Assembly (NCBI RefSeq): GCF_012912135.1
Contig: NZ_QMEB01000006.1
Coordinates: 22,242-57,098, forward strand
Length of the DNA stretch: 34,857 bases
Source: Brasilonema bromeliae SPC951
GTDB taxonomy: Bacteria > Cyanobacteriota > Cyanobacteriia > Cyanobacteriales > Nostocaceae
Direction: 5' to 3'
The notes beneath the pieces are model-generated. The model had not been told where the DNA came from, made no database searches, and saw only the letters and a list, made by a program, of their open reading frames with translations. This document shows, one piece after another, positions 6,049 through 24,896 of the stretch. Numbering within the stretch: position 1 is the first letter of the stretch; each line of letters starts with the position of its first letter. Made by a program: the position numbers and the translations under genes.

Positions 6049-7383
6049 ATGAGTATCCCATTCAATCAAAAATTTGGACTTACAGTTAGTTTTGCTACCT
6101 TATTATTTATCGGTTTAGCCAACACTCACCTACGTGCTCAGTCAAAAACTCAACAGCTATCTCAACAACATACGGCGACACAAAATTTATCTCATACTCA
6201 ACAGCAAAATTCTGCCCTACTTCAACAGCAGATTCCCTCAGCTTCAAGTCAAGAGAATGCTTTTATTGTTCAGCAAACCTCAGATAACAATCTAGACAAA
6301 CAAAATACTCGTCTTTCTGAGCCAAAGTCAGCACCAACATCAACATATTATCAAGTTATTGACGAGTTACAAAAATATAAATTTAGTGTTCAAGGGAATC
6401 AGGTTTTCACTTCCGGAAAATTGCCGACGACGAAAGTTAATTTCAATCAATCAGACTTACTCACAGTTCTCGTTAATACTAGAAAGTATTATCAAGATTA
6501 CGCTTCAGAAGACCAAAAGGTTTTACGGACAGGAGTACTTGCTACTCAAGGAGTAAGTGTAGAAGACATTCTCAAAACCTTAGACTTCATGATTACTGTT
6601 TTGCAAGAAGATATTGCTAATAATCGAGCGACTCGTTTACAAGATCCTAATTTTATCAACACTAATTTCCGTGTTATTAAGTGGTCTGCCTATAACTCTC
6701 CAAGTTCTACTAGTCAAAAACAATTGCGAATTACAAAATATGCAGTTTTTACTCATCCAGCTTCTCATAAGAAAACATCTAAATATAACATACCAATTTA
6801 TAGCTTAAAAGATAACTCAATAGCTGAAAAATTCTACACTAAATATACAAAGCAGGATGTGTTATCAGGTATTTATGAATCAGGTGGTAAAGAATTTGGA
6901 AAAGTAGAACCCCTCGCTTACTTAACCCGAGAAGGTTTTGAAGAAGCGCTTATGGAGGGAACAATACTTCTTAATTTTACGGATGGATCCAAAGCACTTT
7001 TTAATGTTGATAGAAGTAATGAAATGCCTTATCTTCGAGGAGTTGCAGCCACATCACAAAAGCGCTATTGGTATTTTAGACAAGTGGATGATATCAAGGG
7101 TTATGGATATAAGATAGATGCAAAAATTTCTATCAAACCAGGAGTGACTTTTGCTGGAGATGTCTTAAATATTGGTTTAGGTAGAGTGATTGTTCTTGAG
7201 TATCCTAAAGATGGACGCAAACAACTACAATTAGGAGTCCTTGCAGATACAGGTGGAGCATTTTTACCTAATCTTCATCAACTCGATTTTTTGGCAGGTA
7301 TTTTTCAAGGTAGAAAAGATTTTGGGCAGCATACTAGGCAACTACCTGAATATGCTACAGCGTATATTTTAGTGAAAAAGTGA
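6049..7383 (+). CDS. Secreted MltA/3D-domain-like protein (possible peptidoglycan lytic enzyme)
   Basis: I start at the ATG at 6049 (444 residues); a TTG at 6034 would add five residues. Residues 1-31 form a signal peptide ending LRAQ. Residues 32-100 are a low-complexity, glutamine-rich linker. The C-terminal half recalls MltA lytic transglycosylases: KYNIPIY near 246, LTREGFEEA near 292, a GTILLNF...DGSKALFNV...MPY segment around 304-328, and a 3D-type ending ADTGGAF (399-405) with LDF (412-414). In MltA that aspartate-containing barrel holds the catalytic acid. If so, it would act on peptidoglycan in the periplasm. The N-terminal half is unlike E. coli MltA, so this is a divergent member. 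The gene is AT-rich and carries no HIP1 site. It converges with the SDR gene. Confidence 0.6.
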   Translation: MSIPFNQKFGLTVSFATLLFIGLANTHLRAQSKTQQLSQQHTATQNLSHTQQQNSALLQQQIPSASSQENAFIVQQTSDNNLDKQNTRLSEPKSAPTSTYYQVIDELQKYKFSVQGNQVFTSGKLPTTKVNFNQSDLLTVLVNTRKYYQDYASEDQKVLRTGVLATQGVSVEDILKTLDFMITVLQEDIANNRATRLQDPNFINTNFRVIKWSAYNSPSSTSQKQLRITKYAVFTHPASHKKTSKYNIPIYSLKDNSIAEKFYTKYTKQDVLSGIYESGGKEFGKVEPLAYLTREGFEEALMEGTILLNFTDGSKALFNVDRSNEMPYLRGVAATSQKRYWYFRQVDDIKGYGYKIDAKISIKPGVTFAGDVLNIGLGRVIVLEYPKDGRKQLQLGVLADTGGAFLPNLHQLDFLAGIFQGRKDFGQHTRQLPEYATAYILVKK

Positions 7384-7407
7384 ACAAAGAGTTTTTTCAA
7401 CCACAAT

Positions 7408-8124
7408 CTAATACTCTTGTATAAGTGGATGAAGCATCAGTTCATCAATGACTACATGTGATGGTGCACTGAGCGTATAAATAATGGCATCGGCTACATC
7501 GTGTGCGCTCAGCCATCCTTGATGTGCGGGATCTCCCTGAGGTTGTGTATGGAATGATGTGTCAACCAGACCTGGAAAAATAGTGCTTACCTTAATGCCA
7601 AATCGTCGAACCTCCTTGCGTAAAGCCATCGAGAAGGCATCTTGAGCGAATTTTGTCGCACAGTAAGCAGTTCCTCCGTCACAAACTCGTTTTGATACAT
7701 CGGATGCAACCATGACAATGTGTCCGTGTCCTTGGCGCTTCATATGCGGTACAACCTCACGCGAAAACAAAAAGGTACCTGTAACGTTGGTATCAAAAAG
7801 CTCCTGCCATTCACCAAGAGAGTACTGTTCAACTTCGCCAAATTTTCCTATGCCTGCATTATTCACCAGAATATCGATTGAACCGAAACGTTCAACGCAG
7901 TGTTGAACGGTGGAGACAACAAAAGGTTCTGCTGCAACGTCCCCGGCAAATACTTCACACTGATGTCCCTGGTTTTGTAGGTGCGCTTTGAGTTCACCTA
8001 AGAGTTCACTTGAGCGAGCAACTAACGCAAAGCAAATCGTATTGTGTGTTTCAAGCCTTGACACCAGTGCTCTCCCGATGCCTTTTGTGGCTCCTGTGAT
8101 GAGGATTGTTTTCTCTTTTAGCAT
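7408..8124 (-). CDS. Short-chain dehydrogenase/reductase (SDR)
   Basis: The 238-residue protein is a classical SDR. The NAD(P)-binding motif TGATKGIG lies at 10-17, NNAG at 88-91, and the catalytic tetrad at N113, S141, Y154 and K158 (Y-C-A-T-K). An arginine at 37 (ARSS) after the second strand suggests NADPH preference. The substrate cannot be read from the sequence. It lies convergent to the MltA-like gene and divergent, across about 500 bp, from a desaturase gene, so a lipid-related role is possible but unproven. The ATG start at 8124 gives a normal SDR length. Confidence 0.9.
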   Translation of the reverse strand: MLKEKTILITGATKGIGRALVSRLETHNTICFALVARSSELLGELKAHLQNQGHQCEVFAGDVAAEPFVVSTVQHCVERFGSIDILVNNAGIGKFGEVEQYSLGEWQELFDTNVTGTFLFSREVVPHMKRQGHGHIVMVASDVSKRVCDGGTAYCATKFAQDAFSMALRKEVRRFGIKVSTIFPGLVDTSFHTQPQGDPAHQGWLSAHDVADAIIYTLSAPSHVVIDELMLHPLIQEY

Positions 8125-11267: not shown

Positions 11268-12149
11268 TTATGAGCCAAAAAGACCACCAAAGTTATAACC
11301 AACTCCTATTGATAAACCTATATCAGTATCACTGAAAAATGCGGCATTCAAAGCAGCTGTTGCTGTAAATCGAGGAGTTATGGGCACATCAACTCCACCA
11401 GTTACAAGAAAGGCAACCTCAGAACCATTACCAGTGTTGATAGCTGCACCTGCCCCGATGTATGGGGCAATAGGTAACGGAGCAGCAAAAGGATCTGATA
11501 ACTGCTTGAATGAAAGGTCGTAGGTTACGGGAATTAAGATACTTGTGTTGTCTCCGATCACTGCTGCGGGTCGCACTGATATGGCATTTGTTAGCCCGAT
11601 TTTGCTGATAACCATAAAGTTACCATCACCCAAAGCAGAGTTACCACCGAGACCAATGTTGCCACCAATTCCAATATAACTTGAACCACCACGGGTTGGT
11701 CTGCCTGGGTCAACACTAATATCTGCTTGTGCCACTTTAGATTTAGACGATTGAGAAGTTGATTGTTGAACTTCTGCATTCTGGGAATCTATGAGTGCTG
11801 CAGATGAAGTTGATGTTGTCCCAGGAACAGGTGTAACTACATTATTCGCGGCTTGTGTGCTCGTTGGTAACTGCTGCGGGTGATTTACATTTGATACTGG
11901 CGATAAATTATCTTGTACAGCAGTGGACTCTACCGGAGTAGGGCTAAAAGCTGGTGGGTAGAACCTTTCTACTTCAAGATTTACCTGATTAACAAACGCA
12001 TCAGTGCTGGGAGACTTGATGAACTGCTGAGTGCTTGTGGAATCTACCGTTTGGGCACCAGCAGATAAACCGCTTCCCAAAACCGCCATAGCCGATAAAC
12101 TCAGCAAAGAAAATACATTTTTACGGGAAATAATAATGTTCACGTTCAC
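11268..12149 (-). CDS. Exported protein with C-terminal beta-barrel-like domain
   Basis: Residues 1-32 form a signal peptide (VFSLLSLSAMAVLGSGLSAGA, with likely cleavage after AGA). Residues 33-145 are a serine/threonine/glutamine-rich, low-complexity stretch. The C-terminal half, from about 155, is a run of alternating glycine-rich strands (YIGIGGNIGLGG, APYIGAGAAIN, AFLVTGGVDVPI, TATAALNAAFF, DIGLSIGVGYNFGG). This is the pattern of a small outer-membrane barrel, in keeping with its aromatic final strand. No enzymatic motif is visible. It is probably a cyanobacterial outer-membrane protein of unknown role. It lies just upstream, in its own orientation, of the acyltransferase gene, separated by 220 bases. 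Confidence 0.7.
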   Translation of the reverse strand: MNVNIIISRKNVFSLLSLSAMAVLGSGLSAGAQTVDSTSTQQFIKSPSTDAFVNQVNLEVERFYPPAFSPTPVESTAVQDNLSPVSNVNHPQQLPTSTQAANNVVTPVPGTTSTSSAALIDSQNAEVQQSTSQSSKSKVAQADISVDPGRPTRGGSSYIGIGGNIGLGGNSALGDGNFMVISKIGLTNAISVRPAAVIGDNTSILIPVTYDLSFKQLSDPFAAPLPIAPYIGAGAAINTGNGSEVAFLVTGGVDVPITPRFTATAALNAAFFSDTDIGLSIGVGYNFGGLFGS

Positions 12150-13462: not shown

Positions 13463-14251
13463 ATGAACAAAGTCAAAATTTTGAACTTGGAGATTGACAA
13501 TTTATCGAAGTTAGAGTTGTTAGAGAAATTGCAATCGGGAGTAGTATTTACACCCAATGTTGATCATCTGATTAAACTACAAGAAGACCCGGAGTTCTTA
13601 CAAGCATATAGCATTAGTGACTATAAGGTTTGTGATAGTCAAATTCTCCTTTACGCATCTAAGTTTTTGGGGACGCCAATAAAAGAGAAGATCTCAGGTT
13701 CAGATTTGTTCCCGGCTTTCTATAATTATCACAAGAACAATCCAGACATCAAAATTTTTCTTTTGGGAGCAGGTATAGGGATAGCCAGCAAAGCTCAAAA
13801 TGAAATCAACCGGAAAACAAGCAGGAATATTATTGTTGCTTCCTATTCTCCACCTTTTGGATTTGAAAAAGACGAACAAGAGTGTCAGAACATAATTAAC
13901 ATGATAAATAGCTCCGGTGCTACTGTCTTAGTTATCGGAGTTGGTGCCCCAAAGCAAGAAAAGTGGGTATGCAAGTACAAAAATATGCTACCTCATATAA
14001 AGATATTTATGGCGCTGGGTGCCACTATTGATTTTGAAGCAGGAAACTTGAAAAGATCTCCAAAGTGGATGAGTGAAGTTGGTTTAGAGTGGTTGTTCAG
14101 AATTTTCTGTGATCCAAAAAGATTATGGAAAAGATACTTAATAGACGATCTTCCTTTTCTCAGATTAATTTTGAAACAAAAACTCAATTTATACATAAAT
14201 AAAGAACACAAGAAGAAAAACCCGATTTGGCAAATTGCTAACAAATTTTAG
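13463..14251 (+). CDS. WecG/TagA/CpsF-family (GT26) glycosyltransferase
   Basis: The 262-residue protein has the family landmarks in order: NVDHL (32-36), GSDL (79-82), GAPKQEKW (161-168), GATIDFEAG (186-194), RSPKW (198-202) and GLEWLFR (207-213). These enzymes add an N-acetylmannosamine-type sugar to a lipid-linked intermediate at the inner membrane surface, early in polysaccharide assembly. I start at the ATG at 13463; a GTG at 13454 would add three residues. It faces the leftward exopolysaccharide operon tail to tail, 26 bases from the glycosyltransferase remnant. It is AT-rich, lysine- and isoleucine-rich and has no HIP1 site, so it may have been acquired. Confidence 0.9.
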   Translation: MNKVKILNLEIDNLSKLELLEKLQSGVVFTPNVDHLIKLQEDPEFLQAYSISDYKVCDSQILLYASKFLGTPIKEKISGSDLFPAFYNYHKNNPDIKIFLLGAGIGIASKAQNEINRKTSRNIIVASYSPPFGFEKDEQECQNIINMINSSGATVLVIGVGAPKQEKWVCKYKNMLPHIKIFMALGATIDFEAGNLKRSPKWMSEVGLEWLFRIFCDPKRLWKRYLIDDLPFLRLILKQKLNLYINKEHKKKNPIWQIANKF

Positions 14252-14277
14252 GTCTGGCTTTAACACTCACTTTTCAC

Positions 14278-14660
14278 TTACTCAGCTAAGTTTGCTAAGT
14301 AAGTTTTTCGAGATAACATTTCTGGTGTAGTATTGAGTCCTACTTTCTCTATAATTTGCTCCCAACGGTACAGCCAGTCATGACGCAGTAAGGAATTCAT
14401 GAGATTATCTTTACGAATTCTATTTAGATGATCAGGTCGTGCATCTAATTCTGCTATGATATCGGCTACATTAGCAGCATCGTAAGGAATTTCAATTACT
14501 GCATTAGACCAGTTAAAGTAAGTTGTGTAAGCTTCACAAACTGGAGGAGTCCCAATCATAACTGTTTTCCCTGCAGTTCCCTCGAAAAAGCGAGAACCTA
14601 ACTCATCTTGACCACCTGTTTGACTGTTTATTATTCTTAATGCTACTACTTGATTAGTTA
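14278..14660 (-). pseudogene. 3' remnant of a glycosyltransferase
   Basis: The minus-strand frame encodes only a C-terminal glycosyltransferase segment: NSQTGGQDELGSRFFEGTAG, then VMIGTPPVCEAYTTYFNW, AVIEIPYDAANVADIIAELDA and LLRHDWLYRWEQII. The similarity-bearing reading runs upstream without stop to about the stop codon of the GH5 gene (14658-14660). There it meets sequence that belongs to the GH5 reading frame. The nucleotide-binding N-terminal part is missing. The only ATG is internal, at 14559. I read it as the tail of a once longer gene that lost its 5' part in a deletion or rearrangement joining it to the GH5 gene. Translation by coupling to the GH5 stop cannot be excluded. Confidence 0.7.
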
Positions 14661-15914
14661 ACGCAGCACCTGATTCAAAAGTTTCTGCTTATCAGTATTG
14701 ATACTTTTCCAGTCATCTAGTAAGATACCTCCGGTATCTTTACTATTGGGATTCCAGCACCAGTAGGTAAAGCTTAGCTTTTTCTTGTCAACGTAATCAA
14801 CGAACTGTCGCTGCCAAATTCCCTCTTTAGATTTAGTATCTACTTGATTTCCACCAAATTCACCAATCCAAATCGGGGCGATACCTTGAGTCGCAATATA
14901 GTGAAATCCAATCTCCAAACGTTTATACAAATTACCAGGAAGTATCGGTTCTTTAACCCACGGGAGATGAGAAGCTGCGTACTCATGAGGAGAATATACT
15001 AGCTTTTTTGGCACCTTCAAACGCACTGGGTATTTCAGCACACCTTCTAAATTCGCACCCCAAGCATAGATTGGCTGTTTCTGACCTGGCACATTTCCCA
15101 CAACTCCTTCTACCAAAATCAGCCATTTTGGGTTTACACTAAGAATTTCGTTTCCAGCCCGTTCTGCTGCTAACCGCCAGTCTGTGGCGCGATCGCCTGT
15201 TCCCCAACTAGCAGAACCATGAGGTTCGTTTTTCAGATCCGCCCCAATAACATTGCTTTGGTTTTTATAGCGCTTTGCCAAAAAAGTCCAAGTGTCAATC
15301 CAGTCCTTTTCAGTAAAACCGTCACCATACCATAACTCTGGAATCTTGTCATCTTTAAGAGTGTGACTGTCTAAAAGAATAAACAATCCCTGACGCTGCG
15401 CCTCCTGAATAATCATGTCCATGACCTCTATTGGAGTCTTAGCTTGAAAATCTTTATTTGCACCAATATAAAAATCAACACCACTGATATCACGAGAACG
15501 CAGTGCTTGTACAGAATATGGCAAGCGAATGACGTTGTAACCCAGACTTTTCATCTGAGCAAGCATATCTTTGTAACTTCTCACCCAAAGTCCATGAGGA
15601 ACATGATGTATTTGTTCTATCCCAAACCAGTTGACGCCACGCAGTAAAACAACACGATTTTTAGCATCAATAATCGCAGAGCCACGAGTAGACAAAGGAG
15701 GGACAATAGTCGTAGCAGCTTCGCTTCTTGCCATGTCAAATTGCTTTACAAACAACGGCGAACAACTACTGAAAATTGTGTAAAGTAACACTAAAGTCAA
15801 GCCAACTGCAATGTTTTTTGTGATTTGTCCCCACTTTTTGTAATAGTAAGCAATGGAAAAACCAATATTGCGTACTATGGTAAAACCCTGTTTCACAAAA
15901 ATTAGTCTACTCAC
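14658..15914 (-). CDS. Membrane-anchored glycoside hydrolase family 5 (cellulase-like)
   Basis: This 418-residue protein has a hydrophobic anchor at about 34-51, followed by SSCSPL, then a GH5 barrel from about 76. The barrel starts with LRGVNWFGIE, continues with GYNVIRLPYS (125-134), LLDSHT (180-185), DLKNEP with the acid/base E230, and IGEFGG with the nucleophile E352. Both catalytic glutamates are present, so it should cut beta-1,4 or related beta-glycosidic bonds outside the cytoplasm. The start is a GTG at 15914 with only a weak ribosome-binding site. It is the last intact gene of the leftward exopolysaccharide operon, 26 bases after a GT4 gene. This suggests polymer trimming or release, as BcsZ-type hydrolases do in cellulose operons. 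A HIP1 site lies at 15189-15196. Confidence 0.92.
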   Translation of the reverse strand: MSRLIFVKQGFTIVRNIGFSIAYYYKKWGQITKNIAVGLTLVLLYTIFSSCSPLFVKQFDMARSEAATTIVPPLSTRGSAIIDAKNRVVLLRGVNWFGIEQIHHVPHGLWVRSYKDMLAQMKSLGYNVIRLPYSVQALRSRDISGVDFYIGANKDFQAKTPIEVMDMIIQEAQRQGLFILLDSHTLKDDKIPELWYGDGFTEKDWIDTWTFLAKRYKNQSNVIGADLKNEPHGSASWGTGDRATDWRLAAERAGNEILSVNPKWLILVEGVVGNVPGQKQPIYAWGANLEGVLKYPVRLKVPKKLVYSPHEYAASHLPWVKEPILPGNLYKRLEIGFHYIATQGIAPIWIGEFGGNQVDTKSKEGIWQRQFVDYVDKKKLSFTYWCWNPNSKDTGGILLDDWKSINTDKQKLLNQVLR

Positions 15915-15940
15915 AAGACATCGTTAGTTATTTGATAGAA

Positions 15941-16978
15941 CTACATACCTGCTGCGTCTGCAACTTTATCTAGGATTCTGCCCAAAGCTGCTCCTGCAGC
16001 ATCACAAGAAAAATGTTCTTCAGCATAGCGTTTAGCTGCTTGACCAAGACGGTTGCGTAGTGCTGGGTCGTTCCATAACATTTCTATCGCCTGCATTAAG
16101 TCATCAACAGATTTCGGTTCAACTAACAAACCTGTCTCGCCATGCTGAATATAATCTTCTGCTCCATGACAACGGGTGGCGATGATTGCACGACCCATGA
16201 GCATAGCTTCTACAATAGTGACTTGTCCTGCTGCTGTCACTTGGGGCAATGGACGCAGAGGTACGACGCTGATGCGCGCCTCTTGAGCTAAACGCAGGCA
16301 ATCTGCCCTCTCAATGCCAAACGGTGTTTTTACATTCGGCGGAATGGTTAATCCTTCTAATGCACGTTGGCTTGATGCGACAACCGTTGGTAGGTTTAGC
16401 TTTTCTACTGCTTGGAAGAAGGTGGAAAAGTCGCGATGAGCAGAACCGAGTGCTGTGATAAAAGGATGGGTCGTATTCTCTTCATATGTTATGGGAATCT
16501 CTGGTTGATGATAGGGGACAAATTCAAAACGCTCCTTTGGGATTCCCAACCAGTGGTGGTAGATATCTACTTCATGGCGTGTGTGGACAACAAAGTGATC
16601 AATGTGTTTTAGGCTAAATTGGGCGATCGCCTGCCGAATCCCACTAGAACAGGTGCCAACATTAAATAACCAAGCTACTACAGGAATGCGCTTCTTGCCA
16701 GTCATCCGTTGTTGCATTCCTATGACTGCTGGTAGCTGAGGAAAAAGGGTGATCACGCCCCCCTCAGACGCCTTCATCGCTTCCATACCATGTTGCCAAT
16801 ATATTAGCCAACTTCTGAATCCAGTCACAGAAGATTTCTGATTGTGCCAGTTTCCTAACGGTTTTGAACGTGGAACGATATGGAACTGGTGGCGATCGCC
16901 GGGAACATTTCGAGTTAACCAAGGCTCGTTTACGAGGTTCTGTTGGTTAATAAAAGGGGCTGCAATTGTCCAATGCAT
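15941..16978 (-). CDS. GT4-type (group 1) glycosyltransferase
   Basis: The 345-residue protein has the C-terminal donor-binding half of GT-B enzymes: TAAGQVTIVEAMLMGRAIIATRCHGAEDYI, then HGETGLLVEP and DLMQAIEMLWNDPALRNRLGQAA. The usual EX7E is altered; the first glutamate position is alanine or another residue. The N-terminal half is short but has the HWTIAAPF opening and a VVHTRHEVD segment before the linker. It would transfer a sugar from a nucleotide donor to the growing lipid-linked repeat in the cytoplasm. It follows the other GT4 gene by 90 bases and precedes the GH5 gene by 26. It carries two HIP1 sites (16623, 16892), unlike its upstream neighbours. Confidence 0.87.
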   Translation of the reverse strand: MHWTIAAPFINQQNLVNEPWLTRNVPGDRHQFHIVPRSKPLGNWHNQKSSVTGFRSWLIYWQHGMEAMKASEGGVITLFPQLPAVIGMQQRMTGKKRIPVVAWLFNVGTCSSGIRQAIAQFSLKHIDHFVVHTRHEVDIYHHWLGIPKERFEFVPYHQPEIPITYEENTTHPFITALGSAHRDFSTFFQAVEKLNLPTVVASSQRALEGLTIPPNVKTPFGIERADCLRLAQEARISVVPLRPLPQVTAAGQVTIVEAMLMGRAIIATRCHGAEDYIQHGETGLLVEPKSVDDLMQAIEMLWNDPALRNRLGQAAKRYAEEHFSCDAAGAALGRILDKVADAAGM

Positions 16979-17068
16979 ATAAATTGAGAATACCTATGTA
17001 GAAATTCTTTATAGTATAAATGACTCACCATGTACAATATGCTTTCATGTTCTTTGAATCTGTTTTTG

Positions 17069-18280
17069 TCAGTTTACAGTAAAGACTTCTTTGTTGATAT
17101 CCGACACAACACCTTCGACGACTTGAGGACCGAACAGTGACTCAAGCAATTCTTGCTCAACATTAACCTTTAGGGGAGTTGATAACAATCTCACTATTTC
17201 TTCGGCGAAAGATTGAGCATTAACAGCTATTTTAAAAAGTTTTCTCACCTCTTCTGGCAAACCAGCTATTCCCTGAGGTGTAGAAACAATAGGTCTACCA
17301 GAGACAAGCATTTCTATAGACTTTATACTCACCCCGCTACCTGTTAAAACCGGATTAATCAGAACACGTCCCGACTGGTAAACTGCTAGAGAGGATGCTG
17401 GATTGATGCTTAAAGAGACACCTTGGTGTTCCTCACATAGTTGCTTGACTTTCTTTACAGGATTTGAACCAGCGATTAGCACTTTAACAGTGGGTAATGC
17501 AGAGCGTATAATCGGAAAAACCTGTGTTATGAACCAGACTATACCAGCTACGTTGTTGTCAACTTTTAGGTTCCCTAGAAACACAACGTCATACACAAGA
17601 TTGGCGCTGATTTGATCATGGGCTTGTTCTGAATAATTATCTTTAGGAAACTCAACAATAGGCGGTAAGTAGCGCCCATTCCTAAAGCCTTGACTTTGCC
17701 AAAATTTGAAGTCATCTACAGAGATATCGTAGAATAAAGTACTCTTTTTCAGTAAGTCTTTTTCAAAACTTTCCAAGTGAGATACTGACAAATATCTTTT
17801 GAGCTTACTTGTAAAGTCTGTTGTAGATGCAAGTAACCGACGGTAATATAGGTACTCTATATTGTGAGAGCGAGTGATCAGGGGTACATTTAACTTTTTG
17901 CTTAACTTATCTGCGATTTCTCCACCGTGAATTCCATCCAACCAGATAACATCAGGATGAAAAAGACGGACACCAGAAAGCAGAGTCGTTAACTCTTTTC
18001 CCCTGACAATCCGAGAAGTCACTTCTAAAGGATAATGTAATAAGTCAATTGCCCTACGAGCAAGAGAGCCTAGTGTACGTTTAAATGGTATGAGAGAAAT
18101 TTCTTTTACATATTTCTTAATTTCAGCTATTTCCTCTGGTTGTAGCGGTTCATTGATCCAAGATATGAGTTGTAACTCCACGCCGATATTAGAGAAGGCT
18201 TTTATTCTTCGCCACATCTCTACTCGCGCACCACGATTCGGAGGGTAGGGAATGTCATGACATATTAAAGTAATCTTCAT
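17069..18280 (-). CDS. GT4-type (group 1) glycosyltransferase
   Basis: The 403-residue protein opens with MKITLICHDIPYPPNRGARVEM, the typical GT-B N-terminal strand and glycine-rich loop. It continues through a DVIWLDGIHGG segment and a SHNIEYLYYRR region. The C-terminal half has VVFLGNLKVDNNVAGIVWF, KVLIAGSNP and GSGVSIKSIEMLVSGRPIVST, a GT4 donor site with a conserved glutamate. It fits the group that builds repeat units in bacterial exopolysaccharide loci. It starts 15 bases after the polymerase gene, so the two are almost certainly co-transcribed. The gene is AT-rich with no HIP1 site. Confidence 0.9.
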   Translation of the reverse strand: MKITLICHDIPYPPNRGARVEMWRRIKAFSNIGVELQLISWINEPLQPEEIAEIKKYVKEISLIPFKRTLGSLARRAIDLLHYPLEVTSRIVRGKELTTLLSGVRLFHPDVIWLDGIHGGEIADKLSKKLNVPLITRSHNIEYLYYRRLLASTTDFTSKLKRYLSVSHLESFEKDLLKKSTLFYDISVDDFKFWQSQGFRNGRYLPPIVEFPKDNYSEQAHDQISANLVYDVVFLGNLKVDNNVAGIVWFITQVFPIIRSALPTVKVLIAGSNPVKKVKQLCEEHQGVSLSINPASSLAVYQSGRVLINPVLTGSGVSIKSIEMLVSGRPIVSTPQGIAGLPEEVRKLFKIAVNAQSFAEEIVRLLSTPLKVNVEQELLESLFGPQVVEGVVSDINKEVFTVN

Positions 18281-18295
18281 AATTTTAATACGTTC

Positions 18296-19609
18296 TCAAT
18301 TTATTCTTCCTTCTTCGTCTGCCATCACACTGAGATAATAGTTGTATTTTTTTGCTTGTTCATACTCCACAGCCGTTGAGAAAATTATTGATATGTATAA
18401 TATCCAAAAGATACTGTTAGTTGCGACAAGAGTGCTTTCTGTGACGTTGGATAAAAATAAAAACGTCAGATACATTAAAGGCCATAAACCTTCTACCACT
18501 TTAGTCGCTCGTAACCACATGACTCCTCTTATACAGGCGGTTACATAGCTTATGCAAAAAACGATTAACCCTACTATCCCCAATTCTGCCAATAAATCCA
18601 TAAAGCCATTGTGACCATAAGGACATTGCCATTCCAAGGTGCGCCAAAGGTAGGCTGTCACCTCATTATCCCAGCTTTGCCAAACCGCATTAAAACCGTA
18701 GCCTAATAAAGGGCGTTCCCAAATTAGCTCAAACATGACTCCCCAAATATCTGTGCGTCCTGTCAGTGTCAAATCCCTACCTAATGCAGTCGCAATGACT
18801 GGTAAATTATCTAATAACAAGATAGCTATGCTTCCTACTAAAAGAATCACAGTTAGGACTGAAGGAATGACTTGGTTATAATTGCCTCGCAAAGCTTTAT
18901 AAAGTTGCAAAATAGTTGTCAAACTCAGAAAAACAACGAAGGCTGTTTTTGATGTTGAAAGAATGATTAAAATCGCTGAAAGAACAAAACCAACCCACAG
19001 AATCCATTTATATTTTTGTTGAGATTTCTGTTGATAAAGGGAGTTATCAACACAGAGTAAGAGAAAGACTATAGTGCTGACATTCATGAGACGACCCAAG
19101 TGGTTTTTGTGCGCTATGACACCTCGCCAAGCTCCCGCGTGAGCACCTTCTTCCTGAAAGGTCATTAAACCATAAGATGGCAGTGCTATAGCAAACACAA
19201 AGCTTAGTAATATTATTAACCCGAACATCCAGGCTAATAATTCTAATTGCTCCCTCATGGTGTAACGTGTAGCTAAGTATACTCCAAATCCCGTTGTCCC
19301 CAAAAGAAGTACACCACGACGTAGGGTAAGATCTGGTGCTACTGTCCACAACACGGATGCTAATGCAATTCCTACCAGTAGCCAGATCCAAATGTCTTTC
19401 TGGGCAACGTACAAAAAACTTTTCCTGTTTTTAATAACCAAGAAGAGAGTCACGACATAGACTCCCATAAACAGGATTGGAGTGTATGGATCTTGGCTCG
19501 CATCCACAGAATCTTCTTTTTCTATAAGAATAGGTATCAAGGCACTTGTCGAAAAAAACAGAGTCAATACAACAAATACCTTTTCGGCTAGCCTTGATAA
19601 TCTGTGCAT
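18296..19609 (-). CDS. O-antigen ligase/polymerase family membrane protein (Wzy/WaaL-like)
   Basis: This 437-residue protein has ten or more hydrophobic segments and the central periplasmic loop of the Wzy_C family. GVIAHKNHLGRLMNVS follows a gap typical of these proteins, and GYGFNAVW...YGHNGFMDLLAELGIVGL carries the conserved histidine-asparagine pair. Such proteins either polymerise lipid-linked repeats (Wzy) or ligate chains to an acceptor (WaaL). With a flippase and Wzc homologue next door, polymerase is the more likely role. It is the first gene of the leftward operon, starting 492 bases from the divergent Wzc gene. No HIP1 site is present. Confidence 0.9.
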   Translation of the reverse strand: MHRLSRLAEKVFVVLTLFFSTSALIPILIEKEDSVDASQDPYTPILFMGVYVVTLFLVIKNRKSFLYVAQKDIWIWLLVGIALASVLWTVAPDLTLRRGVLLLGTTGFGVYLATRYTMREQLELLAWMFGLIILLSFVFAIALPSYGLMTFQEEGAHAGAWRGVIAHKNHLGRLMNVSTIVFLLLCVDNSLYQQKSQQKYKWILWVGFVLSAILIILSTSKTAFVVFLSLTTILQLYKALRGNYNQVIPSVLTVILLVGSIAILLLDNLPVIATALGRDLTLTGRTDIWGVMFELIWERPLLGYGFNAVWQSWDNEVTAYLWRTLEWQCPYGHNGFMDLLAELGIVGLIVFCISYVTACIRGVMWLRATKVVEGLWPLMYLTFLFLSNVTESTLVATNSIFWILYISIIFSTAVEYEQAKKYNYYLSVMADEEGRIN

Positions 19610-20101
19610 GGCAACTCTATTTGCAATAACTCATTAGCCGTCTCAAGAAAAATTTTTGAACAGAAAAACTAAATAAATTTACCGTCTAAAGACTATCCTC
19701 TTTAACTCTCGTATAATTATGTCCACATAAGTGATTTTTGATTCATCCTAAGTTTTGACTTTACTTTATCTTTATTAGCAAACTCATTTTTATGAATTTT
19801 ATGTAAAGAAGAGCAGAACACATACGTAGGAGGGTATGTTAGAGGATACTGAAACTAGCAAAAATCTGGTATATTTATCCCTATCATCAGGGAGTACTCT
19901 GCGCAAAAAAAAACTAATGGGTGCAGAGTCTGTAACCGCATCACCTTGTTGGATGTTAGCCGTACCGTACTCACGCTACCATTTTTAGTTGCAAATGCAA
20001 CACCATTGCAAATAGTTATCCCGTTTGTGTTTCTGGCAAGTTGGCTAGAATTCAGTATCTAAAAATATAGATTGACAAAATCGTGTATTCAATATGTGTG
20101 A
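19610..20101. promoter_or_regulatory. Divergent control region of the exopolysaccharide locus
   Basis: Two operons diverge from this 492-bp gap, so it must contain both promoters. A 7-bp inverted repeat (actctgc 19896-19902 / gcagagt 19923-19929) brackets an A9-containing stretch and could be an operator. I cannot place the -35/-10 elements with confidence. Confidence 0.45.
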
Positions 20102-22420
20102 ATGGGAAAACCAATGCCAACTAAGGAACAAAGCTTGCAGTACTTGAGAAATTCCAATACTATCTTGAAAGAGCCGTATTTGTTCTGGAGAAGACCAGAA
20201 GGTGAAGAAGAAAATACAGGTTTTAATCAGGTTTTATCTGTATTGCGTCGTCGCTTAGGTTTGATTGCTAGTGCGACAGTTATTGTGACGACAGTGGCTA
20301 TTGCGTGGACAGCAACTCGAACTCCAAAATATGAAGGGAAGTTTCAGATATTAGTTGAACCATTAAAAAGTGCTGATAGTGAGTTACTGCTTTTGCTATC
20401 GGAAACTTTAAAGCAAAATATCAACGAAATCACCAAACAGAATAAAACCGACATGGATTATCAGGCTTTGATGGAGGTTTTAAAAAGTCCAAAGCTGATA
20501 GAGCCAGTTGTTAAAAATCTGAAAAACCGCTATCCAAACATTAGCTACGATCAACTTGTTGGCAGTGATGTGTCTGGTAAAGTGTCTCCTGAGCGAGTTG
20601 GTACGCTACACATTAGTCGGCTTGGTAAAGGCAAAGACCTATCAAGAGTTGTGGAGGTTCGCTATCGAGAATCCAACCCCCAAAAAGTCCAGTATGTTTT
20701 AGAGCAGGTATCACAAGCATATCAAAACTACAGTAAAGAACAACAGCAAACAAATTTACGTCAAGGAATAAAATTCATTGAGCAGCAGATTCCCAAAATA
20801 CAATTCCGGGTGAATACACTTCAAGGACAAATGCAAGTGTTCCAAAAGAAGCACAATATGTTTAACCCGGAACTTCAGGGTAAGCAATTGCTCAACAGAG
20901 TTGATGAACTCAAAACACAGCGCATAGAAATTGAAAGAGGCTTAGCTGAAACTCGCTCACTTTCTGCTTCTTTGCAAAAGCAATTGGATATGTCAGAGAA
21001 TACAGCGATCGCCGCATCAGCCTTGAGTGAATCACCCCAATATCAGCAAGTCCTCACTCGTCTGCAAGAGGTAGAAACAAAAATTGCCACAGAGTCAACG
21101 CGCCTGACTGACAACAACCCAGTCATGCGGAATTTGCGCGAACAGCGACGGAAACTGCTACCTTTAGTACAGCAAGAAGCAAAACTAGCATTAGGCAGGA
21201 ATGGCGGGAGGGATAACTCCCAAGTCGGAGTTTATCAAAACTCGGTTCGCCGTGACCTGATCAAACAACTGGCTGATACCGCTAACCAAAATCAGGCCTT
21301 AGAAAGTAGCCTCCAAGCTAATCAAAAAGCAACGGCTGAGCTAAATCAACAAATTCAGGAATATCCTGCCCTTTCACGTCAGTATGCCAATTTGCAAAGG
21401 GAATTGCAAGTTTCTAGCGACACTCTCAACCAGATTTTAACTAAGCAAGAAGCACTGCGGGTAGATGCTGCTCAACAAGATCTTCCTTGGGAAGTGATTA
21501 CGCCTCCCACACTCCCTCGTGACAAAAAAGGTCATCTCGTACCAGTAGGACTCAATGGTGAGCGTAACATTGCATTAGGAGTTGTTGGAGGTTTACTCTT
21601 AGGAACTCTGGCTGCTTTTGTTCTGGAAAATTCGCAAAATGTCTTTCGCGATTCTGAGGAAATCAAACGTACAACCAAACTACCAGTTTTTGCGGTCGTT
21701 CCTTTCCATAAAGAATTGCGACACCCAACTTCTGTCACTGATAAACAACTCCCATTAGCAGATCAAAAAGGAAAAAATCAATTTGCACCACAGGTAAAAG
21801 CAAAGACTCAGGAGTATCAAACAACAGCTTTTACCGAAGCTTTTTGCTCTCTTTATAACAGAATAAACTCTCTCAAATCACAAGCTTCTATCCACTCAAT
21901 AGTCGTCACATCAGCGACAAGTGGCGATGGAAAATCTACAGTAGCAGTGAATTTAGCAAAGATAGCAGCTCAAGCAGGTCAAAAAGTGCTACTAGTAGAT
22001 GCTAATTTACGTCATCCTCAAGTTCATCATGCATTAGGTTTAGTTAACATCAAAGGACTTAGCGAGATACTTTTTCTAGGTATAGATTTTAATGATGTTG
22101 TTGGACAAGCACCCAGAGAAGAAAATCTTTTTGTGATCACGGCTGGTGATGCACCACAAAATCCCACAAAGCTGTTCTCATCTCAAAGAATGGAGAATTT
22201 CGTGGAGGAAGCCCATGCAAACTATGATTTAATTGTGTATGACGCACCACACATTATGGGACTTTTAGACACAAGCATCTTAGCAAATCGTGTCGATGGA
22301 GTTTTGATGGTTGCAGGACTTGGTAAAACAGTTCGTCCTTCTTTGCACCAAGCCTTGGAAGAATTAAAAACTGGTCAGGTTCCAGTCTTGGGCATAGTAG
22401 CTGATACCATTGAACGGTAG
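20102..22420 (+). CDS. Wzc-like polysaccharide copolymerase with BY-kinase-type ATPase domain
   Basis: The 772-residue protein combines a Wzz chain-length domain with a C-terminal P-loop ATPase. Membrane segments are at about 52-71 and 488-508, enclosing a periplasmic part with coiled-coil stretches (200-450) and the PW-type TLPRDKKGHLVPV end. The ATPase has Walker A TSATSGDGKST (603-613), Walker A' VLLVDANLRHP (629-639) and Walker B LIVYDAP (710-716), as in bacterial tyrosine kinases of the Wzc/CapB kind. It should control chain length and export. The C-terminus ends at GIVADTIER with no tyrosine cluster, so the autophosphorylation tail is missing. Starts at 20102 or at the in-frame ATG at 20114 are both possible. 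It is followed by a flippase and a GT2 gene. A HIP1 site lies at 21005. Confidence 0.93.
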   Translation: MGKPMPTKEQSLQYLRNSNTILKEPYLFWRRPEGEEENTGFNQVLSVLRRRLGLIASATVIVTTVAIAWTATRTPKYEGKFQILVEPLKSADSELLLLLSETLKQNINEITKQNKTDMDYQALMEVLKSPKLIEPVVKNLKNRYPNISYDQLVGSDVSGKVSPERVGTLHISRLGKGKDLSRVVEVRYRESNPQKVQYVLEQVSQAYQNYSKEQQQTNLRQGIKFIEQQIPKIQFRVNTLQGQMQVFQKKHNMFNPELQGKQLLNRVDELKTQRIEIERGLAETRSLSASLQKQLDMSENTAIAASALSESPQYQQVLTRLQEVETKIATESTRLTDNNPVMRNLREQRRKLLPLVQQEAKLALGRNGGRDNSQVGVYQNSVRRDLIKQLADTANQNQALESSLQANQKATAELNQQIQEYPALSRQYANLQRELQVSSDTLNQILTKQEALRVDAAQQDLPWEVITPPTLPRDKKGHLVPVGLNGERNIALGVVGGLLLGTLAAFVLENSQNVFRDSEEIKRTTKLPVFAVVPFHKELRHPTSVTDKQLPLADQKGKNQFAPQVKAKTQEYQTTAFTEAFCSLYNRINSLKSQASIHSIVVTSATSGDGKSTVAVNLAKIAAQAGQKVLLVDANLRHPQVHHALGLVNIKGLSEILFLGIDFNDVVGQAPREENLFVITAGDAPQNPTKLFSSQRMENFVEEAHANYDLIVYDAPHIMGLLDTSILANRVDGVLMVAGLGKTVRPSLHQALEELKTGQVPVLGIVADTIER

Positions 22421-22491
22421 CTAGTAGCAGACAGTGATATTTTCGTCACTCGTTAGTTGTCTGAAAGATAATAATAAGATCAATTCATCCT

Positions 22492-23835
22492 GTGATAAAC
22501 ATTATCAAGAAAAAATTCTCCAGTCAATTCATCCGAAATGTTGGCTGGCTGAGTATCTCAGAGATTATCTACAGAGTTTTGCGCTTGGGATTAGTTGTGA
22601 TCATTGCGCGGTTTTTGAGCCGCCACGACTACGGTTTGGGTGCAATTGTAATGACAGTACGTGAGTTTTCAATCACGTTTGCTGATGTAGGTATAGCAGC
22701 AAAGATTATTCAGGCTGAAGAAGAAGAATTAGAGGATTTGTGTAACTCTGCATACTGGTTAAGTTGGGTCGTTTTTTTGAGTCTTTTTCTGATTCAGTCT
22801 ATTGCGGCTTTTCCCATAGCTTGGTTTTATAAAAGTCCAAATCTGATTTTGCCAATTATTGTTTCAGGTTTAGCTTACTTAATTTGGCCTCTATCTACCA
22901 TACAAAAAACTCTCATCCAAAGAGAAAATCGTCTGAAAGTAATAGCTATTACGAATAGTCTTCAAAACTTGACTGGCAGTATATTGAGTGCGATTTTTGC
23001 TGTATCAGGTATGGGTGTATGGTCGTTGGTGTTGCCTCCAATATTAGCTGCACCTATGGAACCCTTAATATACTACAGAGCACATCCTTGGCGTTTAAAC
23101 ACAGGATTTACTACAAAAAATTGGGGACAGATATTAAAATTTGGGAAAAATCTTTTAGGCGTCTCCTTATTAAGAACATTAAGAAATAACTTAGATTATT
23201 TATTGGTTGGTCGCTTTGTGGTCAACCCAGGAGATCCTGAATATGGAATTCAAGAATTAGGGTTATACTTCTTTGGTTTTAACGCAGGATTAGGAATTAG
23301 TTTAAGTTTTATCAATGCTATTAACTCAGCAATTTTGCCTCATTTATGTGCAGTACGCTCAGAATTGTCTGAATTGAAAAAATCCTATTTTAATAGTCTG
23401 AAAACTATTCGCGCTACCATTGTTCCTTTTGTCATACTCCAATCCAGTTTAGCTCATATTTATGTACCAATTGTTTTTGGTAAGAAATGGCAGCCTGCTA
23501 TCCCCATCGTTGTTCTCATTTGCTTATCGGCAATTCCACGACCCTTTGCAGACGCTGCATCCCAATTGCTTATAGCTGTTGGGAAACCTCATTTAGATTT
23601 ACATTGGAATGTCTTATTTACTATCCTATTTAGCATAGCAATTCTGATAGGAGTGAACTTACAAGTTCTTGGTGTAGATACATCTGTCTTATCAGTTCAT
23701 CTCGGAGAACATTGGCAAATAATTGTTGTAGCTATATCTGTTTTATTAGTTCATCTTGTGTTTTTACCTCTGTTTACATTGTGGGCAACACGTTATGTTT
23801 TTCCAAAAAGTAAGAAAAATGAGGCGCTTCTATGA
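22492..23835 (+). CDS. Wzx-type polysaccharide flippase (MOP superfamily)
   Basis: The 447-residue protein is a multi-pass membrane protein of the polysaccharide transporter family. The N-terminus NVGWLSISEIIYRVLRLGLVVIIARFLSRHDYG is typical of WzxC-like flippases, and 12 or so hydrophobic segments follow. It would move undecaprenyl-linked repeat units across the cytoplasmic membrane for polymerisation by the Wzy-like protein encoded divergently. The start is a GTG at 22492 without a strong ribosome-binding site. The stop overlaps the next start by four bases (ATGA), so the GT2 gene is translationally coupled. AT-rich, with no HIP1 site. Confidence 0.92.
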   Translation: MINIIKKKFSSQFIRNVGWLSISEIIYRVLRLGLVVIIARFLSRHDYGLGAIVMTVREFSITFADVGIAAKIIQAEEEELEDLCNSAYWLSWVVFLSLFLIQSIAAFPIAWFYKSPNLILPIIVSGLAYLIWPLSTIQKTLIQRENRLKVIAITNSLQNLTGSILSAIFAVSGMGVWSLVLPPILAAPMEPLIYYRAHPWRLNTGFTTKNWGQILKFGKNLLGVSLLRTLRNNLDYLLVGRFVVNPGDPEYGIQELGLYFFGFNAGLGISLSFINAINSAILPHLCAVRSELSELKKSYFNSLKTIRATIVPFVILQSSLAHIYVPIVFGKKWQPAIPIVVLICLSAIPRPFADAASQLLIAVGKPHLDLHWNVLFTILFSIAILIGVNLQVLGVDTSVLSVHLGEHWQIIVVAISVLLVHLVFLPLFTLWATRYVFPKSKKNEALL

Positions 23836-24896
23836 AAAAAGTTTCTGTGATCATTCCAGTTTACAAAGTTGAGAAATATGTAGCAGCAACAATACAATCA
23901 GTTCTTGATCAAACCTATAAAAATTTTGAGTTGATCATTATTGATGATGGTTCTCCGGATAAAAGCATAGAAATTTGCCAGCAATTTACAGACAATAGAA
24001 TCAAAATAATCCGTCAGGAAAATCGGGGAGTTGCAGCGGCTCGAAACGTTGGTATTCGTCATGCTCAAGGAGAATATTTGGCTTTTTTAGATGCAGATGA
24101 CTTATGGGTAAGCGAAAAGTTAGAACAACATGTTGAACATTTAAAGAATTCACCAGCAGTGGGGGTGAGTTTTTGTCGCTCTTCTTTAATCGATGAAGCG
24201 GGGAAGCCTTTGGGTATTTATCAAATAACCAAGCTTAAGGAGATTACCCCACTTGATATACTTTGTCGCACTCCCATAGGAAATGGATCGGTTCCCGTGA
24301 TTCGGCGTGAGGTTTTTGAAGAAATTGCATTCCAAGATAATCTTTATGGAGTGGTAGAAAACTTTTATTTTGATGATGATCGCAAACTGCACCCTTCAGA
24401 AGATGTGGAACTTTGGCTGCGGATAGCGATAAAAACGAAATGGCTTATAGAGGGAATTCCTGAAGCTTTGACGCTTTATCGAATAAATTCCCAGGGCTTT
24501 TCGGCTCAACTGGTGAAAAAATTACATTCTTGGGAAACAATGCTGGAAAAAGCACGCGCCTACGTACCTCCAGCATCAATGGCCCAGTTAGAAAAAATCG
24601 CTATAGCTTATCAACTACGGCATTTAGCCCGAAGGGCAGTGACTTTAGAAGATGGTTCAACAGCTGTGGAGTTTGCTTGGCGATCGCTCTCTACCCACTG
24701 GCGAATTATACTAGAAGAACCACACCGTACAATTATCACCCTCGCTGCAGCTTATTTTCTCTGGCTCATGCCACGCCAGCTGTACCATCAAGTACAGTCT
24801 GTTGCTTTAAAAATTGCCGGAACTATTCAAAAACGACGCATTCAACAAGAAGAATTAGCAAAAAAATCTTATAGCGTTGTTCTAAAGGATGTCTGA
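23832..24896 (+). CDS. GT2-family glycosyltransferase
   Basis: The 354-residue protein opens with VSVIIPVYKVEKYVAATIQSV, carries the nucleotide-binding DDGS at 38-41, RGVAAARNVGI near 66-75 and the metal-binding DADD at 87-90, all GT-A family 2 hallmarks. A VELWLRIA segment follows later. A hydrophobic stretch near the C-terminus (IITLAAAYFLWLM) could anchor it to the membrane. It would add a sugar to the lipid-linked repeat. It overlaps the flippase gene by four bases. A HIP1 site lies at 24680. A nested hairpin repeat follows the stop. Confidence 0.93.
   Translation: MKKVSVIIPVYKVEKYVAATIQSVLDQTYKNFELIIIDDGSPDKSIEICQQFTDNRIKIIRQENRGVAAARNVGIRHAQGEYLAFLDADDLWVSEKLEQHVEHLKNSPAVGVSFCRSSLIDEAGKPLGIYQITKLKEITPLDILCRTPIGNGSVPVIRREVFEEIAFQDNLYGVVENFYFDDDRKLHPSEDVELWLRIAIKTKWLIEGIPEALTLYRINSQGFSAQLVKKLHSWETMLEKARAYVPPASMAQLEKIAIAYQLRHLARRAVTLEDGSTAVEFAWRSLSTHWRIILEEPHRTIITLAAAYFLWLMPRQLYHQVQSVALKIAGTIQKRRIQQEELAKKSYSVVLKDV

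Follow-up and report, generated by a model that had tools for sequence, protein, structure and literature searches.

Why should a locus for a Wzx/Wzy-dependent exopolysaccharide (EPS) in a cyanobacterium carry the gene of an endoglucanase-type hydrolase of family GH5 among its glycosyltransferase genes? The question is raised by a stretch of 34,857 nucleotides from Brasilonema bromeliae SPC951 (contig NZ_QMEB01000006.1, positions 22,242 to 57,098), hereafter called the window, in which such a GH5 gene (14658-15914, minus strand, 418 amino acids) lies in one operon with the gene of a Wzy-type polymerase. In other bacteria, Wzx/Wzy loci are known to encode hydrolases that edit the polymer, and the role of these enzymes is disputed. 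The answer that we favour, and regard as fairly probable, is that this is an EPS locus of Scytonema-related cyanobacteria with its own membrane-tethered, periplasm-facing endo-glucanase, which trims or releases the polymer. Gene content, linkage, a single GH5 branch, a predicted anchor and fold, the catalytic residues and purifying selection are the ground of this reading; the substrate, the place of action and the role of the enzyme are what we infer.

The locus consists of two divergent blocks and a GT26 gene that faces the first of these, as the initial annotation had described, and open reading frames and Pfam (E values in brackets) bear out each of its gene calls. The minus-strand block begins with the Wzy-type polymerase gene (18296-19609, 437 amino acids; PF04932, 9.1e-17), for whose product a crude count by hydropathy gives 10 hydrophobic segments, and continues with two GT4 glycosyltransferase genes (17069-18280, 403 amino acids; PF13692, 2.5e-15; and 15941-16978, 345 amino acids; PF00534, 1.3e-14, and PF13692, 1.8e-14) and the GH5 gene, with intergenic gaps of 15, 90 and 26 bp in this order. 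The plus-strand block encodes a Wzc-type co-polymerase with a P-loop ATPase domain (20102-22420, 772 amino acids; PF02706, 1.2e-9; TIGR01007, 5.3e-38), a Wzx-type flippase (22492-23835, 447 amino acids; PF13440, 3.5e-51) and a GT2 glycosyltransferase (23832-24896, 354 amino acids; PF00535, 9.3e-40), with gaps of 71 and -4 bp. The blocks are 492 bp apart, and 406 bp separate the GH5 gene from the GT26 (WecG/TagA/CpsF) glycosyltransferase gene (13463-14251, plus strand, 262 amino acids; PF03808, 1.5e-53). Wzx, Wzy and the polysaccharide co-polymerase Wzc thus stand together in the window (PF13440, PF04932 and PF02706), which marks the locus as one of the Wzx/Wzy pathway. The Wzc-type protein has a Walker A motif, GDGKS, near residue 608, and no tyrosine was found among its last 40 residues, where a C-terminal tyrosine cluster was looked for. 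Its sequence thus bears out the name Wzc as regards co-polymerase and ATPase, but gives no support to it as regards tyrosine kinase.

The linkage of GH5 to Wzy is seen well beyond this strain. When 217 genomes of the same family, one genome per species, were searched for Wzy, 171 gave matches, 43 of them at an identity of at least 54%; outside these 43, none of the matches listed exceeded 47%. The 43 loci annotated (that of the window, the nine loci L012-L020, which coincide by their coordinates with nine of the genomes found, and 33 further ones) have a common order, in which the Wzx and Wzc genes are divergent from the Wzy gene, and the latter is followed by glycosyltransferase genes, the GH5 gene where present, the gene of a glycosyltransferase that we call GTf8, and the facing GT26 gene. 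A Wzc-like gene adjoins Wzy in 42 of the 43 loci, the exception being L096. GH5 lies within the Wzy operon in 26 of the 43, across seven genus groups. GH5 does neighbour Wzy in other cyanobacteria, and the scatter of homologues over related genomes that the initial annotation had named as a refutation is not what was found. GH5 is followed, in all 24 GH5-bearing loci that are readable at this point, by GTf8 or what is left of it (in L017 a 122-residue open reading frame stands between them); in L085 and L091 the contig breaks off here. Fourteen of the 17 GH5-less loci have GTf8 with no GH5 before it, and one of these, L101, has an unidentified gene of 389 codons in the preceding place. The annotated stretches of the other three (L096-L098) showed no GTf8 and no GT26, and those of L094, L095, L099 and L100 showed no GT26 either. 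An order-level sample of 291 genomes, which held few near relatives, gave a GH5 relative in 41, and only the window's own exceeded 72% identity.

GH5 matches were found in 68 of the 217 family genomes. In a tree of 25 locus GH5s, 38 other cyanobacterial GH5s and five other bacterial ones, which are part of the hits, the locus enzymes form one branch (support 100/99) apart from the free-standing GH5s, and this fits one origin. The tree and the residue comparisons below leave aside the GH5 of L091 (156 amino acids, at a contig end), the free-standing solo_L028, which was translated in a wrong frame (24 amino acids), and three unlinked short GH5 frames in the genomes G452, G455 and G456 (438-442 amino acids); these three indicate that some short GH5s occur without linkage to Wzy. 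A clustering with unrelated secreted cellulases had also been named as a refutation. This was half borne out: the closest outside relatives are free-standing cyanobacterial GH5s, yet the locus enzymes branch off on their own and have a membrane anchor. In pairwise estimates, which are crude, the ratio of nonsynonymous to synonymous substitution rates (dN/dS, NG86) of GH5 was 0.07-0.32 in 10 of 10 locus pairs, and that of neighbour genes in the same pairs was 0.06-0.73; the GH5 values indicate purifying selection.

PF00150 (2.2e-48; 165.6 bits against a cut-off of 23.5) is the sole Pfam match in the window GH5, which has no carbohydrate-binding module (CBM), and phmmer matched it to 1ece (4e-88) and 1vrx (5.1e-89). 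Its AlphaFold2 model, with a mean predicted local distance difference test score (pLDDT) of 81.6, has a helix at residues 2-51, a loose stretch at 52-68 and then the catalytic domain; the model aligns with endocellulase E1 (1ece) over 341 residues with a Z score of 47.9 and a root mean square deviation of 1.7. E1 and the nearest structural relatives of the model are endo-beta-1,4-glucanases. Both catalytic glutamates are kept, as had been noticed from the sequence: E230 and E352 correspond to E162 and E282 of E1. Together with R130, H184, N229, H310, Y312 and W387 they make up the eight residues that we take to line the E1 active site, located via the phmmer alignment. By these eight residues and its modelled fold, the window GH5 classes as an E1-type endo-beta-1,4-glucanase, presumably of CAZy subfamily GH5_1, with predicted hydrolytic activity on beta-1,4-glucan. 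Six of these residues (R62, N161, E162, H238, Y240 and E282 in E1 numbering) are kept in all 25 locus GH5s, and all eight are kept in 22, the window's included.

The locus GH5s are 395-435 amino acids long, with the catalytic domain at their end and no CBM2. Hydropathy places an N-terminal membrane segment at about residues 38-56 of the window GH5; all 25 have such a hydrophobic N-terminal segment, with more Lys and Arg in the 20 residues before it than in those after it. A lipoprotein anchor was considered, since a Cys ends the hydrophobic segment in the Scytonema and Brasilonema enzymes, and was rejected, as this Cys is missing in L081-L085 and others; what the locus GH5s have in common is a predicted membrane helix. 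Five of five free-standing GH5s put to Pfam (L001, L021, L024, L028 and L034) carry CBM2, unlike the window GH5. The 38 free-standing cyanobacterial GH5s share 145 alignment columns that are conserved in 37 or all of them; the locus clade conserves 99 of these, and five (187, 283, 284, 315 and 393) are mostly changed in it. Of these five, the window GH5 has K187, Y283, A284 and A315 changed and D393 unchanged. Columns 187, 315 and 393 stand 3-6 positions after the active-site residues 184, 312 and 387. The alignment suggests that the locus GH5s may have kept the mechanism and changed its surroundings; an altered substrate is something that we can only infer.

How the enzyme would work can be proposed as follows. 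A sugar-phosphate transferase encoded elsewhere would prime undecaprenyl phosphate, GT26 would add a sugar to the primed lipid, and the GT4 and GT2 enzymes would complete the repeat unit. Wzx would flip this unit, Wzy would polymerise it under the control of the Wzc-like co-polymerase, and a Wza-type exporter encoded elsewhere would release the polymer from the cell. GH5, tethered to the membrane, would encounter the growing chain on the periplasmic side. It would most likely cut at beta-1,4-linked glucose, in polymer that is still nascent or has stalled, either to set the chain length, to clear mis-exported chains or to release the polymer. Since E1 and the nearest structural relatives are endo-beta-1,4-glucanases, the simplest guess is that the polymer holds 1,4-linked glucose. 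The initial annotation had already proposed a trimming or release enzyme built into the pathway. That GH5 belongs to the locus is supported by the 26 operons, the single branch and the dN/dS values; the trimming or release is presumed.

The exopolysaccharide hydrolase PslG of Pseudomonas aeruginosa belongs to GH39. No GH39 match was found in the window GH5, for which PF00150 was the only one at E values up to 0.001, so that the likeness to PslG is one of role and not of family. PslG is the best tested precedent: it lies inside an EPS locus with Wza- and Wzc-like proteins, as GH5 lies in the window locus, and its inner-membrane association and both of its glutamates are reported to be needed for full Psl production (PMC6813494). 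PslG acts on Psl; the window enzyme has an E1-type fold, and the bacterial group and the gene order are different. The EPS cluster of Myxococcus xanthus is likewise of the Wzx/Wzy type, and its predicted glycosyl hydrolase EpsB is described as important, not essential; the cluster differs in also holding PHPT and OPX genes (PMC7484181). The gum-like cluster of Kozakia baliensis, of the xanthan/acetan type, brings together gumM, genes of the Wzx/Wzy type and, beside gumM, the gene of a putative endoglucanase (PMC5050591). The Kozakia cluster resembles the window in gene content and differs from it in holding gumD and gumB and in that its endoglucanase was suggested to serve plant-wall degradation (PMC5050591). 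GumM is a member of the GT26 family (PMC6493773) and adds beta-1,4-glucose in xanthan-type pathways (PMC5050591, PMC6493773). In wps-1 of Actinoplanes missouriensis, GT26, a hydrolase and Wzx/Wzy-type genes occur together, and deletion of wpsE is reported to cause a mild defect; here the hydrolase is a GH26, sulfotransferases are present and the organism is an actinobacterium (PMC13390465). The hydrolase EPS273-J is described inside a Wzx/Wzy-type locus of Pseudomonas stutzeri EPS273. The BcsZ-type GH8 of cellulose operons is also an endoglucanase dedicated to polymer synthesis; that system is synthase-dependent, not Wzy-dependent, and the window's genome has such an operon separately, on contig C99. 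Among the papers listed by searches of open-licence full text we found no report of a GH5 gene within a Wzx/Wzy locus of a cyanobacterium.

Several observations weigh against a locus-specific endo-glucanase. GH5 is absent from 17 of the 43 orthologous loci. In a FastTree of Wzy plus Wzc the GH5-bearing loci do not group together to the exclusion of others, since L096, L097, L098 and L101 fall among them, and this has to be put down to losses, transfers, repeated gains or weakly resolved branches. The glycosyltransferases beside GH5 differ widely while GH5 stays, and the enzyme may therefore not read a specific repeat unit; the members of the GT26 family, moreover, use different sugars. Two active-site residues vary: H116 of E1 is kept in 23 of 25 locus GH5s, with Gln in L014 and L015, and W319 in 24 of 25, with Leu in L094. 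An earlier study, as cited in PMC6813494, found PslG not to be needed for Psl synthesis.

The loci L014 and L015, both of Brasilonema, deserve a remark of their own. Their active-site His is replaced by Gln, and L080 keeps His. The GH5 tree sets them apart from L080, though their Wzy and Wzc are close to those of L080, and the synonymous divergence (dS) of their GH5 to L080 and to the window is 0.40 and 0.61, with 0.05-0.34 for neighbouring genes. An exchange of the GH5 gene alone is possible from these values.

A more specific form of our reading, which we offer tentatively and with low confidence, is that the polymer is a heteropolymer similar to xanthan whose backbone is of the cellulose type, with GT26 adding a second beta-1,4-glucose in the manner of GumM. 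GH5, captured once from free-standing cellulases and remodelled near its active site, would act on this backbone as a periplasmic editor; some of the 'cellulose' in sheaths of the Scytonema type would be the same polymer, and the pairing of GT26 with a hydrolase would recur in distant Wzx/Wzy loci.

Alternatively, GH5 could edit sheath cellulose made by a separate cellulose synthase operon and merely be co-expressed with the EPS operon. The endo-beta-1,4-glucanase structures nearest to GH5 would suit this, and a review lists cellulose in the sheaths of Scytonema hofmanni. Contig C99 indeed carries a cellulose operon, with a BcsA-like gene whose match, the one in the genome to reach the model cut-off, stands just at it, but this operon has a GH8, a BcsB and a tetratricopeptide repeat protein of its own, and a second GH5, on contig C12, carries CBM2, so that the cellulose-operon and free-cellulase roles are already filled. 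BcsA was not found in the window locus, the contig of the window showing only a weak match of 21.2 bits, to a GT2 fragment at the left edge of the window. Because GH5 lacks the CBM2 of its checked relatives and stays beside Wzy in 26 genomes, we consider this explanation unlikely. GH5 might also be a catalytically altered or weak enzyme whose task in the assembly complex is to bind glycan or to transglycosylate. The substitutions in three of the 25 locus GH5s and the five changed columns, four of them changed in the window protein, would agree with this; the two glutamates in all 25 and the complete set of eight residues in 22, including the window's, make it quite unlikely. That GH5 is a nutritional or environmental cellulase sitting in the EPS operon by chance is very improbable in spite of its kinship to the free-standing CBM2 cellulases, given its membrane anchor, the missing CBM, the one branch, the lasting linkage to Wzy and the presence of another GH5 in 22 of the 26 locus-bearing genomes.

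The initial annotation had stated that no initiating transferase and no Wza lie in the window, and this is true of the window; both functions are found elsewhere in the genome, an assembly of 6.26 Mb in 447 contigs (89.8% complete) in which the window belongs to contig C237. A whole-genome search gave six PF02397 and two PF00953 matches as priming transferase candidates and three PF02563 matches, on contigs C185 and C213, for a Wza-type exporter, all of them off C237. It is plausible that parts are shared with another locus. In cyanobacteria, EPS genes are reported to be typically scattered over the genome (PMC4594306), and the synechan (xss) cluster of Synechocystis 6803, a cyanobacterial Wzx/Wzy system, depends on a Wza-type gene located elsewhere (PMC8205485); by this analogy the incompleteness of the window set is ordinary. 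The synechan cluster differs from the window in having sulfotransferases and the priming transferase inside it, and the gene list given in that source includes no hydrolase (PMC8205485).

A comparison with hormogonium polysaccharide (HPS) loci, which had been suggested, did not hold: in the window the NCBIfam bit scores are below the cut-offs for HpsE (51.5 against 300), HpsN (62.4 against 425) and HpsP (21 against 550). An HPS locus is ruled out also by the exosortase/Wza group on another contig, C213, which encodes an exosortase, a DegT aminotransferase, a Wza-type protein and a 723-residue protein with a P-loop ATPase domain. This group resembles the crtB locus linked to hormogonium polysaccharide as described for Nostoc punctiforme (PMC12188702). 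The limited spread of the window locus, with 43 of 217 family genomes, speaks indirectly against one for heterocyst-envelope polysaccharide.

Five of the six TagA active-site positions compared are kept in the window GT26 (T37, N39, D65, Q167 and E168 of TagA correspond to T30, N32, D58, Q165 and E166), and R83 is replaced by K76. Identity of GT26 in L012-L020 is 86-95%, and the best NCBIfam match of the window GT26 is EpsA, with 146.9 bits, below the cut-off of 500. Two losses had been missed by the initial annotation. The stretch 14266-14622 (minus strand) is a GTf8 remnant of about 119 C-terminal codons; by tblastn it is 76-82% identical to residues 270-388 of GTf8 from seven genes in L014-L020, where the full length is 387-389 amino acids. 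It was rejected as an independent small gene, as it matches the GTf8 C-terminus only. The remnants in L012 and L013 are shorter still, and together with that of the window they suggest repeated or stepwise loss of GTf8. A GT4 gene, f6, present in L012 (the nearest relative) and others, is absent from the window between 17035 and 17094, with about 1.35 kb lost relative to L012 7535-8883 and about 58 bp of unmatched sequence instead. By these two losses, as read from the assembly in 447 contigs, the window strain is left with a smaller set of sugar transferases than its nearest relatives have. In other loci, L094 has a second, inverted GTf8-like gene (16083-17204, 46% identity) at the position that GT26 takes elsewhere, and glycosyltransferase genes are split in two frames in L013 (GT4a, 6271-7514), L090 (GT4a) and L093 (x6), possibly as pseudogenes or through sequencing errors.

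Two further features of the window may be mentioned. A possible associate of the locus is a predicted 8-strand outer-membrane barrel protein (11268-12149, minus strand, 293 amino acids), the gene of which adjoins GT26 in many related loci. It was rejected as the missing Wza: it has no Pfam match at E values up to 0.001, and residues 153-287 of its model match the 8-strand barrel OmpW (Z score 16.9), pLDDT being below 50 for residues 1-152. At 1-2646 a squalene-hopene cyclase gene stands in divergent orientation to a GT2 gene that the edge of the window truncates; the two are a possible hopanoid pair, in which the GT2 gene would be HpnB-like.

We regard the principle of a hydrolase within such a locus as already known in other bacteria, and an E1-type anchored enzyme, in cyanobacteria and in 26 genomes, as what is new. 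The 26 loci with and the 17 without GH5, all with an orthologous Wzy and all from one cyanobacterial family, provide a natural comparison. If it is true that GH5 cuts the polymer of its own locus, it would be a specific tool for sheath and slime polysaccharides and a handle on their backbone.

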